A stretch of 5,457 nucleotides of DNA from Candidatus Zixiibacteriota bacterium (GTDB lineage: Bacteria; Zixibacteria; MSB-5A5; GN15; FEB-12): NCBI GenBank assembly GCA_003641345.1, contig QNAD01000153.1:1-5457 (forward strand). Reading direction: 5' to 3'. The notes beneath the pieces are model-generated. The model ran no database searches and had not been told where the DNA came from. It was given only the letters and a program-made list of their open reading frames with translations. The position numbers were made by a program, and so were the translations under genes. Below are positions 1-5,457 of this stretch, piece by piece (the first letter of the stretch is position 1; each line of letters opens with the position of its first letter).

Positions 1-513
1 CAATGAATCGAGCGGACTTCCATAATAGTCATTAGGAAACGGTAATCTAAAATTCTGCCCCATGCCAAGAATTACCAGAGCATAATAAGGCTTGTAACCC
101 AAGAAACAATAATCGACGCCATTAACAATTTCTCGTCCTTTGAACTCTACATCATTGTAAGCTCTGTCAAGTAGCAAGGAATCCGAAATATCACGAATAG
201 CCTGATCTGCCATACCGGGACCGTTTTGAGACAGCGAGGTGAAAATAACTTTTACATTTTTTCGCCAACAATGCTCAACAACTGCATAAGTCATAGGATG
301 CAATTCAGCCATATTATTCGGGTCATAATCAATAGCTATTAAAACTATTGACCCAGGTTCAAGATCATCGATAAAATCATATATCTTTTGTGATTCTGGT
401 TCAACCATTATAGGAACATCAAATGGTACTACATACGCAAAAACACATACAATAATTAAAAACAGGAAGACCCAACGACGATCTAACTTCATCAATTTTT
501 CAAATACATTCAT
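1..513 (-). CDS. C: N-terminal part of an extracytoplasmic DxDP-domain protein (3' part outside window)
   Basis: The first 171 codons are present and the frame stays open to the left edge. The start MNVFEKLMKLDRRW has a strong Shine-Dalgarno AAGGAGG at 519-525 with five bases to the ATG. A single membrane span (about 14-32) after the basic KLDRR implies an N-in anchor and an outside domain. The visible domain matches C' from residue 44 on with a constant offset of 28: IVLIAIDYDP (56-65) against KILISFDFDP, then HPM against QPM, NVKVIFTSL (86-94) against HKIIFMSL, and VDYCFLGYK (133-141) against VDYVNIGYK. PLDSL at the window edge matches PLDSI of C'. C lacks the extra N-terminal span of C'. 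If the resemblance continues, about 110-120 residues including a glycine-rich region and a C-terminal span lie outside. Function is unknown. Confidence 0.88.
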   Translation of the reverse strand, partial: MNVFEKLMKLDRRWVFLFLIIVCVFAYVVPFDVPIMVEPESQKIYDFIDDLEPGSIVLIAIDYDPNNMAELHPMTYAVVEHCWRKNVKVIFTSLSQNGPGMADQAIRDISDSLLLDRAYNDVEFKGREIVNGVDYCFLGYKPYYALVILGMGQNFRLPFPNDYYGSPLDSL

Positions 514-518
514 ATTGT

Positions 519-525
519 CCTCCTT
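519..525 (-). promoter_or_regulatory. Ribosome binding site of C, overlapping the stop of B
   Basis: TAAGGAGG on the minus strand merges the TAA stop of B (526-524) with a near-perfect Shine-Dalgarno sequence, five bases before the ATG of C at 513. A ribosome finishing B would be positioned over the start signal of C, which favours coupled production of B and C. Confidence 0.8.
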
Positions 526-1339
526 ACCCCTTCCCCATATAGCCGCGTTCAATACCCAAAATAATTTTCAGGGCGGTAGCAACAATTCCAAGTCCAATTC
601 CAATTACAATTGCTCGCTGAGCAGCCAAATTAGGTACATTCATTAACCAATTGGATAATTTAGCTCCATAGTCACCATAAATTACAGGTACCCATGGATT
701 AAATCTCATCATCACAATCAGTGCAGCAACCAAAAGAAGCGTAGCTAATAAGTTCCTGGCTCTAAATGCACGATATGCCGCCGATGCGATAAAGAACGCC
801 AACAAAGCAAACATAGTTGATAATACAGGAATTAAAATATGGTCGAAGAATGATCGGAACATCGGATTCTGAACACCTTCGGCTGAACTAAAATGAAAAC
901 TCCAACTATTATCAAAGATTGAAATTAATACTGACAACAAAATGAATAAAACGGATAATCCAGCAAAAGTAGTTCTTTTACCGGTAGAAATCATTGTGTG
1001 AATAACCATTCCAATTGCTAACAATGCACAAACCACAAAAGGAATATAGAACCCCCATGATTCACCATTGAAAGCAGTAAAACCAAAAATTATCTCACCA
1101 AATAACCCAAAAAGAATCAAATAAGAATAAACATAGTTTTCTTTTTTATTCTTTATCTTATCCATCGAAACTCGTAATAATGACCAAATTCCCAGAGCAA
1201 GGGCAAAGATACCGATGATAATAATCCAGTCAAGAAGGAATTCGTAAACCCATTCGGAAGTTTCATGAGGAATAAAATATTGGAAAATCATGAAAGCTCC
1301 GAAAATAAATACTAAAGCAAATGGTATTTGTCTTTTCAT
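524..1339 (-). CDS. B: polytopic membrane protein of unknown function, longer paralog of B'
   Basis: A 271-residue protein starting MKRQIPF. The reading frame is open a further 51 bases upstream, but the ATG at 1339 is chosen because it has an ideal AGGAGGT seven bases off at 1346-1352 and because it matches MKREIPL of paralog B'. Hydrophobic segments lie near 5-23, 36-57, 70-88, 98-116, 123-142, 165-186, 198-211 and 240-262. Conserved motifs are LLAFFIASAAYRAFRARN (179-196) and NLAAQRAIVIGIGLG (237-251), followed by LGIERGYMG. Compared with B' it has about 56 extra residues before the first motif, including two additional hydrophobic segments near 98-142, and about eight fewer between the motifs. 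It follows A by 11 bases and precedes C by 10. It is an inner-membrane protein with no recognised family function; its repeated placement between A-type and C-type genes suggests one complex. Confidence 0.9.
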   Translation of the reverse strand: MKRQIPFALVFIFGAFMIFQYFIPHETSEWVYEFLLDWIIIIGIFALALGIWSLLRVSMDKIKNKKENYVYSYLILFGLFGEIIFGFTAFNGESWGFYIPFVVCALLAIGMVIHTMISTGKRTTFAGLSVLFILLSVLISIFDNSWSFHFSSAEGVQNPMFRSFFDHILIPVLSTMFALLAFFIASAAYRAFRARNLLATLLLVAALIVMMRFNPWVPVIYGDYGAKLSNWLMNVPNLAAQRAIVIGIGLGIVATALKIILGIERGYMGKG

Positions 1340-1345
1340 GCCGTT

Positions 1346-1352
1346 ACCTCCT
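1346..1352 (-). promoter_or_regulatory. Ribosome binding site of B (decides the start)
   Basis: AGGAGGT, read on the minus strand, sits six bases before the ATG at 1339 and overlaps the TAG stop of A (1353-1351). It supports the ATG at 1339 over the upstream in-frame ATG at 1390, which lies inside the coding end of A. Confidence 0.8.
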
Positions 1353-2745
1353 AATTCATAACTTGGAAAAGGTCGGTGAAATAAGTCCAACCAAGGTTAG
1401 CGGCTATCAAACCTGTAATGCCAAGAATAACTATCGCCGCTTTAGCCCAATCCTGAGCTTTAAGCGATCCAAGCAATACCGGTTCACGTCCTAAATATGC
1501 CGATGCGGCATAAAGTTCTTCACCAATCAAAGTGTAATCACATGCAACTATAAAAAATGGAATCTGAGCAATTTCATCAGTACCTGCAATCTGAATAGAA
1601 CCAGCAACTGCACCGGTTTCTGCAAGTAGAAGTGATTCGGCAAAGAATTTACCCATATAAACATTTGTAGCCGGCAATTCTCTTAACATAGTTCCATTAA
1701 CAGCGGCAACATATGCAAACTGGGATTGAGTTACGAAATGGACAGTATCTTCTTTAAAATCATCCGGACGACCGGCATCAATATAAGCTGACTTAACAAC
1801 TTCCTGTGCTACTGTCATAACGATAGGATCATAAGTAGGGACAATCAATGCTGTTTGGTACTCAGCAACTTTTTTAGCAACTCTTCCTAAAATTGTAAAA
1901 GATGCAATGGTTGCAACATCGGATGCTGTCCCCAAACCTAATACATAAAGAATTGGTTTTCCCATTTCTGTTGCACGGCCGATAGCATCATCGACAGCTT
2001 CAATTCCAGCTAAAGGTCTAACATATAAATCAGCACCCTTTTTAGCTTTTTGCACAAAATATATTGTCATAAAACAAAAGAATAATACTGCTGCAAAAAT
2101 CGGAATACGACCAGTATTGAACAACTGTCCATAAGAATGAACCGGACCAAATATTTCCGAACCTGTTCTAATTTCATCATCACTGGTCACAGCGAAAACC
2201 TGATAATAGAAATCACAATAATCCGGAAGATAGTCAAAAGCTTCACGTTTTTTGCTTCCTTTATCGACAAAATTAGTATCACCGGAAGGTGACACACCAA
2301 CGCTTTTCCAAATGCCATTATTAGGATATTGTCCGTATGCATCTGAATAACGTGACAATAATCCTGCATATTCATCACGAAGCCGATTTCTTCTCTCTTT
2401 AATTTCTCCTGTCGGATCACCTATATCTAATTCCTGTTCGGCATTTGCAAGTTCTGAACGTACTTGCTCAACCGTATCTCTCATAAGCGGTACCCAACGG
2501 AATATTTCATAAAACATAACAGTACCGGCTCCCTGTCCATCATCAGGGGATGCTTCCCAAGTCAATGTGACAGAATGACCGTTGTCATTGTCGGTATCTG
2601 TTGCTGTCAACATTGATATCGGTGCCGGAGGCGGCATTTGTTCAGTAGTGTCCGCTTCCGGTACAACTTCTGTACCTTCCTGAGCACTAACCGATATCGT
2701 CGCTAATAATAGCAGACAAATAAAGATTACCGTTTTTAATTTCAT
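1351..2745 (-). CDS. A: DUF6754-like protein with signal peptide, split FN3-like domain and conserved cytoplasmic domain
   Basis: A complete 464-residue protein. Residues 1-21 form a signal peptide ending VSA before QEG. Residues 41-205 resemble a fibronectin-III domain: VTLTWEASPDDG (59-70), YEIFRW (79-84), later WKSVGVSPSGDTNFVDKG (146-163) and FYYQVFAV (179-186). A charged helical stretch at about 90-137 interrupts it after the YEIFRW strand. A membrane span (about 212-231) is followed by basic QKAKK, placing the next domain in the cytoplasm. That domain (about 245-430) carries AIGRATEMGKPILYVLGLG, AEYQTALIVPTYDP, QSQFAYVAAVNG, AETGAVAGSIQIAGTD and CDYTLIGEELYAASAYL. From memory these match the DUF6754 family, whose function is not known to me. 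A last span (about 433-452) ends the protein. Shine-Dalgarno GGAAGA lies at 2751-2756. It is paralogous to A' at the right edge. Confidence 0.92.
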   Translation of the reverse strand: MKLKTVIFICLLLLATISVSAQEGTEVVPEADTTEQMPPPAPISMLTATDTDNDNGHSVTLTWEASPDDGQGAGTVMFYEIFRWVPLMRDTVEQVRSELANAEQELDIGDPTGEIKERRNRLRDEYAGLLSRYSDAYGQYPNNGIWKSVGVSPSGDTNFVDKGSKKREAFDYLPDYCDFYYQVFAVTSDDEIRTGSEIFGPVHSYGQLFNTGRIPIFAAVLFFCFMTIYFVQKAKKGADLYVRPLAGIEAVDDAIGRATEMGKPILYVLGLGTASDVATIASFTILGRVAKKVAEYQTALIVPTYDPIVMTVAQEVVKSAYIDAGRPDDFKEDTVHFVTQSQFAYVAAVNGTMLRELPATNVYMGKFFAESLLLAETGAVAGSIQIAGTDEIAQIPFFIVACDYTLIGEELYAASAYLGREPVLLGSLKAQDWAKAAIVILGITGLIAANLGWTYFTDLFQVMN

Positions 2746-2766
2746 ACAGTTCTTCCAATTTAAAAC

Positions 2767-2794
2767 ATTATATAAATTAACTTATTATTTCCAA
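2767..2794 (-). promoter_or_regulatory. Possible internal promoter ahead of the second A-B-C module
   Basis: On the minus strand a perfect TATAAT (2772-2767) lies 16 bases downstream of TTGGAA (2794-2789), a four-of-six match to the TTGACA -35 box. Transcription would start near 2760, just ahead of the GGAAGA ribosome site and ATG of A. This is in the only intergenic gap above 11 bases in the window. AT-rich sequence makes chance matches common, so this is weak evidence. Confidence 0.22.
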
Positions 2795-3622
2795 CCAATC
2801 CTTGAAAAGAAAAGTGATTCTTCCAACCAACAGAGAAATACGCCCCATAACAGTATAGCCGAACGAAGCACCAAAGGTAATCATCAGAATCCAAATTCCA
2901 ACCCTTGATGCCTTTCCAAAAGCTCCGGTATGCTCTTTTGAAAAGAAGAAATAGATAAGACCGCAAAAAACTCCTATAAATATTACCCAGTTAGCTAATA
3001 TTAACACCAGTTGTCCTGATGCATCTAAACTTAAATTACTTAAAAAATCCCCGAATCCAGTCCAGTTATTTCCCAAAAGAGGAACAAATGTTGACGAAAC
3101 CTGCTGTATAAAATCTGATTGTAAATATCGAACAAAATTCAATCCGGCAGTAGTACCAACAATCAACGCCAACGGCCAACGGGAAATCCATCCATAATTA
3201 CTGGATAATCTCATTATTAACATAACACCGAATATAATAGGAAAGATAAAGACGACATTCATTATATCAATACCTAAAACATTTCCCCAATCACCCCCTA
3301 TATATGGAACCTTAAAAGCATTTGATAAACCCTCAGATATTCTTGGAATCAAATTCCCAACGATTGTTGACCAAAACCCAAGACACATCCAAAAAGCCGC
3401 AGAAATGCCAACAAACAAATGCTCGGCAAATTTATAAAAAGGATTATCTTTATATAGGAATGATAAAACTGATAAAGTTAAAAAAGCAGCAATAGTAACC
3501 AAAAAACCACGTAAAATATAATTGCTCTCTGCAGTAGCACTTACAGCATTGGCTTTTAGCACCCAGCTTAAAATAAACAGCCCCATAACTACTGCCGTAA
3601 CAATTATTGCTGTTTTTTTCAT
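2777..3622 (-). CDS. D: roughly seven-span integral membrane protein, unpaired member of the cluster
   Basis: A 281-residue very hydrophobic protein with no function I can name. Probable membrane spans lie near residues 5-22, 36-57, 67-90, 118-138, 148-165, 204-227 and 240-258. Between spans two and three sits the polar-aromatic motif KDNPFYKFAEHLFVG (58-72), which looks like a family signature. Basic residues cluster in short loops, such as RLSSNYGWISR near 138-148 and FGKASR near 235-240. The start MKKTAII is set by a four-base ATGA overlap with the stop of C' and has AAGGGTGG upstream, so translation is coupled to C'. Unlike its neighbours it has no second copy in this window; it lies exactly between the two A-B-C modules. 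A 31-base gap separates it from A. It is probably the shared membrane core or partner of both modules, but that is inferred only from position. Confidence 0.9.
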   Translation of the reverse strand: MKKTAIIVTAVVMGLFILSWVLKANAVSATAESNYILRGFLVTIAAFLTLSVLSFLYKDNPFYKFAEHLFVGISAAFWMCLGFWSTIVGNLIPRISEGLSNAFKVPYIGGDWGNVLGIDIMNVVFIFPIIFGVMLIMRLSSNYGWISRWPLALIVGTTAGLNFVRYLQSDFIQQVSSTFVPLLGNNWTGFGDFLSNLSLDASGQLVLILANWVIFIGVFCGLIYFFFSKEHTGAFGKASRVGIWILMITFGASFGYTVMGRISLLVGRITFLFKDWLEIIS

Positions 3623-4560
3623 TTAGCACCACCCTTGCGACGAGATCTAAAGAAAATCACATTACCAATAATTATAAAGCACATGATAACCATGTGGGCT
3701 AAAGTCTGTGGTCCCATCATACGAAGCCCGGGAGTATCCATATTTTCAAATTTGGAATAATTCTTTACAAATTCAGACTCATACTCTGCGGCACCTTTGA
3801 CGCCACCCAAGATACCTACAACTTGTTTAGGATAATATGGATATAACTGTGGAGCAACTACCGCCGCAACACCTACACCCATTGGAATATTACCAGGATC
3901 CCCGACAAACAGAACCCATTCTTTAGGACCGGGTTTACCTCCGCCAATAGACACTATCATGTCAAGATCTTTACAAGATTTTAAATTGTAAAAAAGTGGG
4001 ATTGAGTCAAGCGGGACAGAATTGACATCTGTCGGAAACATCTGGCGAAAGTCTGCAACGATAACATTTAGAACACCTTCGTTACCTGCTTTATATCCAA
4101 TATTTACATAATCAACAAATTCTTCTTTTTCCGGAAACTGCGGCAGTACAACAGTCTCCAATGTCTGACTTAGAAGTGCCTGTCCGGTTGCCCAAAGGGA
4201 CATAAAAATTATTTTGTGGCCTTTTTCCAATGCATGAGCACTTATCGCGTTAGCCATCGGTTGGACTTCGGGAGCCATTGCCGGATCAAAATCAAATGAG
4301 ATTAAAATTTTGGAACCGGCGGGTAAATTTTCAATTTTATCATAAACCCCTTTTACAACTTCAGTTGCACTTTCCTGAAATGTTATCGGGAATAAAATCG
4401 GTGCCGCTACTGCAACAAATATGAAAATAAATATAATTCTTCGGTCAACTTCTTTTGCTTTTATAGAGCGAATCAACAACCACAAAAGCCCACCAAAAAT
4501 TACTATAAGAGAAATAATAACTCCAATATCAGACAGGGAAATTAAAAGGAAATTATTCAT
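3619..4560 (-). CDS. C': membrane-anchored protein with large extracytoplasmic DxDP domain
   Basis: A 313-residue protein of unknown function. Two N-terminal spans (about 6-30 and 42-62) flank a basic loop with RSIKAKEVDRR. A soluble domain of about 220 residues follows, then a third span (about 287-304) and a basic tail RSRRKGGAK. The positive-inside rule places the soluble domain outside the cytoplasm. That domain alternates beta-like hydrophobic strands and helices: KILISFDFDP (84-93), KIIFMSL (116-122), VNIGYKAG (152-159), LNVIVADF (164-171), DMIVSIGGG (200-208) and a glycine-rich GILGGVKGAAEYE (249-261). This suggests a Rossmann-like alpha/beta fold. It is paralogous to the partial gene C at 513-1; 15 of 35 residues are identical around DxDP. 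The ATG lies 2 bases after the B' stop and is preceded by GGAGGAAGGGA. The 3' end overlaps the start of D in an ATGA. Enzyme versus ligand-sensing role cannot be decided. Confidence 0.9.
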   Translation of the reverse strand: MNNFLLISLSDIGVIISLIVIFGGLLWLLIRSIKAKEVDRRIIFIFIFVAVAAPILFPITFQESATEVVKGVYDKIENLPAGSKILISFDFDPAMAPEVQPMANAISAHALEKGHKIIFMSLWATGQALLSQTLETVVLPQFPEKEEFVDYVNIGYKAGNEGVLNVIVADFRQMFPTDVNSVPLDSIPLFYNLKSCKDLDMIVSIGGGKPGPKEWVLFVGDPGNIPMGVGVAAVVAPQLYPYYPKQVVGILGGVKGAAEYESEFVKNYSKFENMDTPGLRMMGPQTLAHMVIMCFIIIGNVIFFRSRRKGGAK

Positions 4561-4562
4561 AT

Positions 4563-5240
4563 CTATTTCCCTTCCTCCCCAAGGTAGGTTCGTTCAACGC
4601 CAAGTATCAGGCGAAGCGACATAGAAACCACACCCAGTCCAATGCCAATCATAATAGCTCTTTGTCCTGCTAAATTAGCTGAGTTCATTATCCATATAGC
4701 TAAATTGGGAATCTGAAAAATTGAAAAACTATCAGGTATCCATCCAGTAAGCATCATTCCAAAAGGAGTACGGCCTAATAGAATTATAAAAGCGGCAATC
4801 AATAAAATTGTAGCTTCTTTATTTTTAGCACGGAAAGCACGATATGAAGCCGAAGCCACAAAAAATGCCAAAAGAGAATACATTGTTGATTGCAACGGGT
4901 TTATTACATAGTTAAATATTTCCTGAAACCATGAACCTTCGGCAGTAACCGATGCAGCTATACCACCGTCATTACCTATCTTAAACAGACCGGCATACAA
5001 CATCAAAGCAAACCCGCCTAAAGTTACAAGAGAATACATCCAGTCTTGTTTTCTGTCACCAAGCTTACGGACATGCACCCGTATAAGATTACCACCTCCG
5101 AGGAAAAAGGCAAACACAGCAATAATATCAAAAAAGAGCGTAAATGTTTTTTCAATGTTTTCAATTGGTGGAATAAACACCGCTATTATAAGCAATACGC
5201 CAACAAAAAATGTTATAAATAATGGAATTTCTCGTTTCAT
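4563..5240 (-). CDS. B': polytopic membrane protein of unknown function, shorter paralog of gene B
   Basis: A 225-residue protein with no function I recognise. Hydrophobic segments suggest membrane spans near residues 5-23, 34-53, 66-86, 114-131, 142-156 and 194-214. Two motifs stand out: LLAFFVASASYRAFRAKN (residues 123-140) and NLAGQRAIMIGIGLG (189-203), followed by LGVERTYLG. Both recur in gene B (524-1339): 26 of 38 positions are identical around the first motif and 22 of 34 around the second, counted by eye. B' lacks a stretch of about 56 residues that adds two hydrophobic segments to B. The start MKREIP matches MKRQIP of B. Its ATG directly abuts the stop of A' and has only a weak Shine-Dalgarno-like GTGAG upstream, so translation probably depends on coupling. 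It is an integral inner-membrane protein; a role as membrane anchor or channel subunit of a complex with A' and C' is inference. Confidence 0.9.
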   Translation of the reverse strand: MKREIPLFITFFVGVLLIIAVFIPPIENIEKTFTLFFDIIAVFAFFLGGGNLIRVHVRKLGDRKQDWMYSLVTLGGFALMLYAGLFKIGNDGGIAASVTAEGSWFQEIFNYVINPLQSTMYSLLAFFVASASYRAFRAKNKEATILLIAAFIILLGRTPFGMMLTGWIPDSFSIFQIPNLAIWIMNSANLAGQRAIMIGIGLGVVSMSLRLILGVERTYLGEEGK

Positions 5241-5457
5241 CTATTTACTCACAGAAAATATAGTAGTGAAAAAATCATAAATCGAAGTCATAAATGCAAT
5301 ATCCCAGGCAGCACTAAAAGTAGCCGCAATAACACCAATTAAAATCACTATCAATGCTATAGCTTTGCCCACATCCTGCCCCTTTAAAGAACCCATCTGT
5401 TTAGGTTCACCAGACAAATACGCAGAGGCGGCAAAAAGCTCTTCTCCAATTAAAGTA
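5241..5457 (-). CDS. A': C-terminal end of a DUF6754-like membrane protein (5' part outside window)
   Basis: Only the last 71 codons are present; the gene enters from beyond the right edge and ends at a TAG (5243-5241). The peptide opens with TLIGEELFAASAYL, continues with a short linker containing GSLKGQD, then a hydrophobic span of about 20 residues (roughly KAIALIVILIGVIAA onward), and ends in FSVSK. Over its first 45 residues it aligns without gaps to residues 405-449 of the complete gene A at 2745-1351, with 28 identities counted by eye, so the two are paralogs. By analogy the missing part should hold the rest of the conserved cytoplasmic domain, and possibly a membrane span and FN3-like region. 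The TAG stop is immediately followed by the ATG of B', which implies translational coupling. Function is unknown. Confidence 0.88.
   Translation of the reverse strand, partial: TLIGEELFAASAYLSGEPKQMGSLKGQDVGKAIALIVILIGVIAATFSAAWDIAFMTSIYDFFTTIFSVSK

Follow-up and report, generated by a model that had tools for sequence, protein, structure and literature searches.

A tandemly repeated four-gene membrane module with a DUF6754 subunit in Zixibacteria, and a candidate partner pair with a MutL/GlmL-type member

The closest described relative of the system reported here is the Pfam family DUF6754 (PF20539), an entry that spans some 250 residues of a single subunit, with no function assigned. We analysed a window of 5,457 nucleotides (the whole of the stretch under study, contig QNAD01000153.1 of a Candidatus Zixiibacteriota bacterium) that encodes this subunit, here called A, together with three further membrane proteins, B, C and D. 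The A proteins of both modules in the window belong to DUF6754: against a curated cut-off of 27 bits, the A of the module that we number 3 scores 382.6 bits over profile positions 3-256 of 257, and the A fragment of module 2 scores 69.7 bits. The four-gene unit, its repeats and a pair of partner genes outside the window, M and K, fall outside the Pfam entry. Other described systems each resemble one part. MutL/GlmL (PF13941), which is not the DNA repair protein MutL, is an accessory protein of glutamate mutase operons; M matches the whole family profile, but here it accompanies K and a membrane module. Rnf and Na+-NQR are multi-subunit membrane complexes with a barrel-sandwich peripheral subunit, and K resembles that domain. 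Rossmann domains of the Sir2 and TrkA types show 5-12 % identity only, and in the present system both domains are tethered between membrane helices. For Sir2 the likeness to A is one of fold alone; a Pfam scan of A returns DUF6754 and no Sir2 family profile.

The window takes up the middle of an array in which four-gene modules follow each other in tandem; it covers module 2 from the end of A to D, and module 3 from A to a C that is mostly included. An earlier note, made from the letters of the window, had instead read a three-gene A-B-C module duplicated around a single shared D, and on this point the relatives decide otherwise. Genome contigs were scanned with an alignment of D, which gave 164 relatives, and the best 80 loci were analysed. 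In all 80 the genes lie on one strand and keep to the cycle A-B-C-D, the sole departure being a D of L014 that is in two pieces. The commonest order is ABCDABCDABCD: 27 loci are exactly three modules, five have two, 11 have one, L055 has four, and 36 are cut by a contig end or otherwise incomplete. Across these loci we found 171 open frames of the D family, one per module. Since D recurs in this way it is not a shared subunit, and we rejected it as the lone component common to the modules. The true unit is A-B-C-D, normally three in a row. Packing within the arrays is tight, with short overlaps between neighbouring genes. As the 80 loci were retrieved via D, their order alone cannot show that members never occur singly. 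In 12 genomes reached through the loci there are one to six DUF6754 matches per genome (5, 5, 5, 5 and 6 in five Zixibacterial chromosome records), and of 14 stretches around the further copies, 12 hold A, B, C and D together.

The paralogy on which the earlier note built its module is sound. The three pairs occur in the same order and, in local alignments, score far above 300 shuffles (A'/A z 22.7, B'/B z 50.0, C'/C z 34.0), and D resembles none of the A, B or C proteins of the window by the same kind of comparison (z 0.2 to 2.0). Most of the identities it had counted were recovered exactly (28 of 45 residues for A, 26 of 38 in the first B block, 15 of 35 for C); the 22 of 34 given for a second B block were not, and over the C-terminal stretch of B we count 26 of 44. 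Profile comparisons link none of the four subunit families to another, with all six pairs at a probability of 1.6 % or less.

The four genes are inherited near all-or-none. For Planctomycetota we sampled 149 genomes, which are related to each other and of unstated completeness, and relied on counts, not p values. Any of A to D was found in 42 genomes, and all four in 40. The check that the earlier note had proposed, conservation of order and co-occurrence, came out positive. A is present in 41 genomes and B in the same 41; C occurs in those and in G079, and D in 40 of them (not G026) and in G079. A and D lie within 6 kb of each other in 35 of the 40 genomes having both. In the other five (G036, G099, G117, G149 and G157) they are far apart or on other contigs and the set is still present; in G036 A, D and a B+C pair occupy distant places of one contig. 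Genes both scattered and not co-occurring, the outcome that the earlier note had named as fatal to its module, were not what we saw. G079 has matches to M, K, C and D with no A or B, and is possibly incomplete. DUF6754 itself was found in all 80 Zixibacterial genomes, of which 44 have five matches and nine have six, in 50 of 60 Latescibacterota genomes, with a single match in 49 of those 50, and in none of 14 control genomes. Planctomycetota and Latescibacterota genomes are mostly single-module.

Within the arrays, each position has its own history. Among the 27 three-module loci, first- and third-position copies form exclusive groups in all four family trees (27/27 for A, B, C and D). Second-position groups are nearly exclusive: they also take in L031 and L037, which are short contigs, and the group lacks L046, L049 and L058 in the A tree and L046 and L049 in the C tree. 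A separate tree of D agrees with the position groups. In the window, the fragmentary A, the first B and C, and D fall in the second-position group, and the second A, B and C in the third. Judged from these trees, positions 1, 2 and 3 became separate lineages long ago in each of the four families, which bears out the suggestion of the earlier note that a whole module was duplicated and diverged into specialised sets. Compared with L001, non-synonymous differences amount to 0.14 to 0.25 per site and synonymous sites are saturated, and for this last reason no dN/dS ratio is given; the pattern is consistent with strong purifying selection. Each of the four families, at about 90 sequences per family, retains nearly invariant residues. 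In a tree of joined modules, unlinked Zixibacterial copies form two further lineages, one with a supported Fermentibacteria relative (L101) and the other weakly joined to two others. A second Fermentibacteria copy (L102) lies on the third-position side, and Planctomycetota single modules group with the second-position lineage. These placements suggest that some module versions predate the phylum, in what is a quick tree of unknown root with a long branch at L104.

Clustering the genes around the 80 loci identified two neighbours, M and K, as candidate partners of the module. M matches MutL/GlmL over its full length (profile 1-450 of 450), with 433.2 bits and an E-value of 1.4e-129 in L011 and 419.7 bits and 1.8e-125 in L072, and by family it would be an ASKHA-type ATPase. 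K has about 375 residues; Biotin_lipoyl is above its cut-off in L072 and below it in L068, and no family is matched in L079. A search of solved structures with K gave four matches at E-values of 0.036-0.61. Both genes track A. In Planctomycetota, K is present in 36 of the 41 genomes with A versus 2 of 108 without, and M in 36 of 41 versus 7 of 108. In 25 of 36 Planctomycetota genomes K is found within 4 kb of A, upstream and on the same strand. In Latescibacterota K occurs in 52 of 60 genomes, 49 of these with A, and stands just upstream of A in 46 of the 49. Three have K and no A: in two of them the contig stops 8 and 224 bases from K, on the side where A would be expected, and in the third 918 bases are left. 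A single genome has A and lacks K. Zixibacteria carry K in 76 of 80 genomes, with a single match in 70 of the 76. If anything is common to the modules it would be K, outside the window, with mostly one match per genome against five DUF6754 matches in 44 of 80.

M and K also occur fused in one frame on four contigs. The frames are complete in L120 (985 residues) and L121 (933 residues) and cut on the other two. The L120 fusion matches MutL with an E-value of 1.8e-93 and, in its K part, the RnfC barrel-sandwich domain with 7.1e-7 (RnfC_N 29.6 bits, cut-off 25.6), and NqrA_N weakly; stand-alone K of L072 reaches 19.2 bits for RnfC_N, below the cut-off. The fusions (L120:7132-10089, L121:2267-5068, L111 and L112) come from genomes of the Fermentibacteria phylum and of Zixibacteria. 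No A to D gene was found on the stretches around them, and perhaps they represent a second, distant M-K system.

That the four proteins of a module form a complex we infer from the co-inheritance and close packing of their genes and from the duplication of whole modules. The reading that we favour, at a probability of roughly 0.5, is that every module specifies an obligate inner-membrane complex of four subunits, which the M-K pair serves, and that Zixibacteria have several specialised versions sharing one M-K pair. B and D would make up the membrane core. C would place a Rossmann-like domain outside the cytoplasm, and A would span the membrane with its fibronectin III (FN3) domain outside and its strongly conserved, Rossmann-like DUF6754 domain inside. 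Soluble M and K could then dock on the cytosolic part of A, where ATP turnover by the pair might drive or gate the complex, so that its outer domains work on some target in the envelope. It is the family of M alone that suggests the coupling to ATP. The earlier note had seen an uncharacterised membrane complex whose proteins it could assign to no function; the complex stands as the likeliest reading, with the amendment that A does have a named family, DUF6754. A bolder version, which we consider doubtful, would make M, K and A to D an envelope machine of a new class, in which a barrel-sandwich adaptor couples an actin-fold ATPase to a four-subunit membrane complex acting on an extracytoplasmic substrate, kept near all-or-none in several phyla and with about five specialised Zixibacterial versions.

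Several observations weigh against this reading. Five A-bearing Planctomycetota genomes are without K and five are without M, and in Zixibacteria M is linked only patchily: of 23 loci with at least three modules, no more than 10 have it as one of the two nearest genes upstream. The ATPase activity of M and the function of K are predicted from family resemblance only, and the membrane sides were read by eye from the positive-inside rule. L099, a contig of 3,420 bases, carries A alone; a simple cut by the contig end was rejected as the explanation. L105 (4833-6964) has an A and a B, and the frames behind them show no match to C or D, even unfiltered. Downstream of the last D, 24 of 30 loci carry a pyruvate phosphate dikinase-like gene (named by eye), which gives no pointer to an envelope role. 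The genome of L105 also carries the four-module array L055.

Of the alternatives, the one that survives best, unlikely as we consider it, is a single large hetero-oligomer made from all three paralogous sets, with fixed places for the subunits of modules 1, 2 and 3. The fixed order of adjacent modules in 27 loci, each position its own lineage, would fit this. Single modules are nevertheless usual in Planctomycetota and Latescibacterota, unlinked extra modules exist, and part of the array is placed elsewhere in two records. In the chromosome records of G001 (L004 and L077, CP070756) and G005, DUF6754 copies that elsewhere form one array are far apart, either by real rearrangement or by misassembly. 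Less probable again is a sensor or gating device, in which DUF6754 or C would bind a nucleotide or small ligand and switch the membrane part. Below this we rank a redox- or ion-driven pump resembling Rnf or Nqr, improbable in our judgement, in which K would be the peripheral subunit corresponding to RnfC or NqrA. In favour of such a pump, the K portion of the L120 fusion matches the RnfC domain above its cut-off. The barrel-sandwich fold is nonetheless the sole feature shared, and it is a common one; B, C and D have no consistent Pfam family, and among 36 D, 35 B and 97 C sequences scanned none matched the Rnf/Nqr membrane subunit families. The metagenomic origin of all relatives seen might invite the view that the repeat arose in assembly, or that unrelated membrane genes simply stand in a row. 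This view is already largely refuted and hardly credible, given the same array in 27 loci from different records, copies far diverged inside an array, and four genes that co-occur even when apart.

The seven open frames of the window all lie on the minus strand and, read from position 5457 to 1, are the end of A, B, C, D, A, B and most of C (Table 1). They are closely packed, with the start of D within the end of C. For B and C of module 3 the likely starts are the ATGs listed, each with an AGGAGG-like stretch ahead of it. The A of module 3 is laid out as an N-terminal helix, an FN3 domain with a helical hairpin insert, a helix, the DUF6754 domain and a last helix. The D of module 3, a paralogue of the window D, is expected beyond the window edge at position 1. 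The nearest proteins to the window D and A are 97 % and 92 % identical, respectively, in records named candidate division Zixibacteria. Promoter and terminator patterns in the window were not above shuffle level.

Table 1. Genes of the window, in the direction of reading
Gene	Coordinates	Strand	Basis
A, module 2; C-terminal end only, DUF6754; leaves window	5241..5456	(-)	PF20539 E 2.8e-19, profile 202-254 of 257; second-position A group
B, module 2; 225 aa multi-helix membrane protein	4563..5240	(-)	open frame; second-position group in tree
C, module 2; 313 aa, membrane-anchored Rossmann-like domain, DxDP motif	3619..4560	(-)	model mean pLDDT 94.7; second-position group
D, module 2; 281 aa multi-helix membrane protein	2777..3622	(-)	open frame; second-position group; start overlaps C end by 4 bases
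A, module 3; 464 aa	1351..2745	(-)	PF20539 E 9.1e-115; model mean pLDDT 91.0; FN3 by profile; third-position group
B, module 3; 271 aa from ATG at 1339; open frame extends back to 1390	524..1339	(-)	third-position group
C, module 3; first 171 codons from ATG at 513; leaves window	1..513	(-)	third-position group

Beyond A, family and structure searches returned little. Weak hits of the window proteins to ILEI, TgpA_N, YldA and others all fell under curated cut-offs. In the Pfam scans of 36 D, 35 B and 97 C sequences no consistent family emerged, and we discarded isolated matches to EIIC-GAT (1 of 36 D), TMD0_ABC (2 of 35 B) and DUF4149 (1 of 35 B), with none in the 97 C. No ABC ATPase was matched by the seven window proteins, and the weak TMD0_ABC matches in two B proteins were the only trace of such a system. 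Sequence searches of solved structures found FN3 chains only for A and nothing for C1 alone, for D or for the 609-aa B of L068; the C profile gave five matches at E-values of 0.63-0.90. A Foldseek search with C returned nothing below an E-value of 0.001, and its receptor-type rows read as helix noise. Six window proteins matched 0 families among the PADLOC models of anti-phage defence at an E-value of 0.01, and a known defence system was set aside on that ground. In some B proteins the family sequence is interrupted at about residue 93 by a large insert, which consists of FG-GAP repeats in L058:12251-13990 and of an unassigned stretch in the 609-residue B of L068 (L068:7054-8880). B matches are split in several Planctomycetota genomes. 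Among the neighbouring genes, a small basic protein lies downstream of the last D in 21 of 30 loci, with a gene of the ADP-forming acyl-CoA synthetase type beyond. In Zixibacteria this small, very basic protein (cluster c1, e.g. L005:5519-5872) has a conserved KEKAKEYQRQY-type repeat, sits between the last D and the pyruvate phosphate dikinase-like gene, and matches no family above cut-off.

We found no mention of DUF6754 or PF20539 in the open-licence papers of PubMed Central that were searched, and further literature searches, covering titles and the beginnings of abstracts, gave nothing on this system. The four-gene set probably makes a membrane complex not described before, one subunit of which carries a Pfam domain of unknown function. 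The divergence of three whole modules by position is a clear case of a multi-gene unit that was duplicated and retained as a unit. An unnamed domain becomes a testable complex through a gene set kept near all-or-none, the single-module versions of Planctomycetota, which include cultured members, and M and K as candidate partners. A membrane system kept so widely likely matters to the envelope biology of bacteria that are known almost only from metagenomes.

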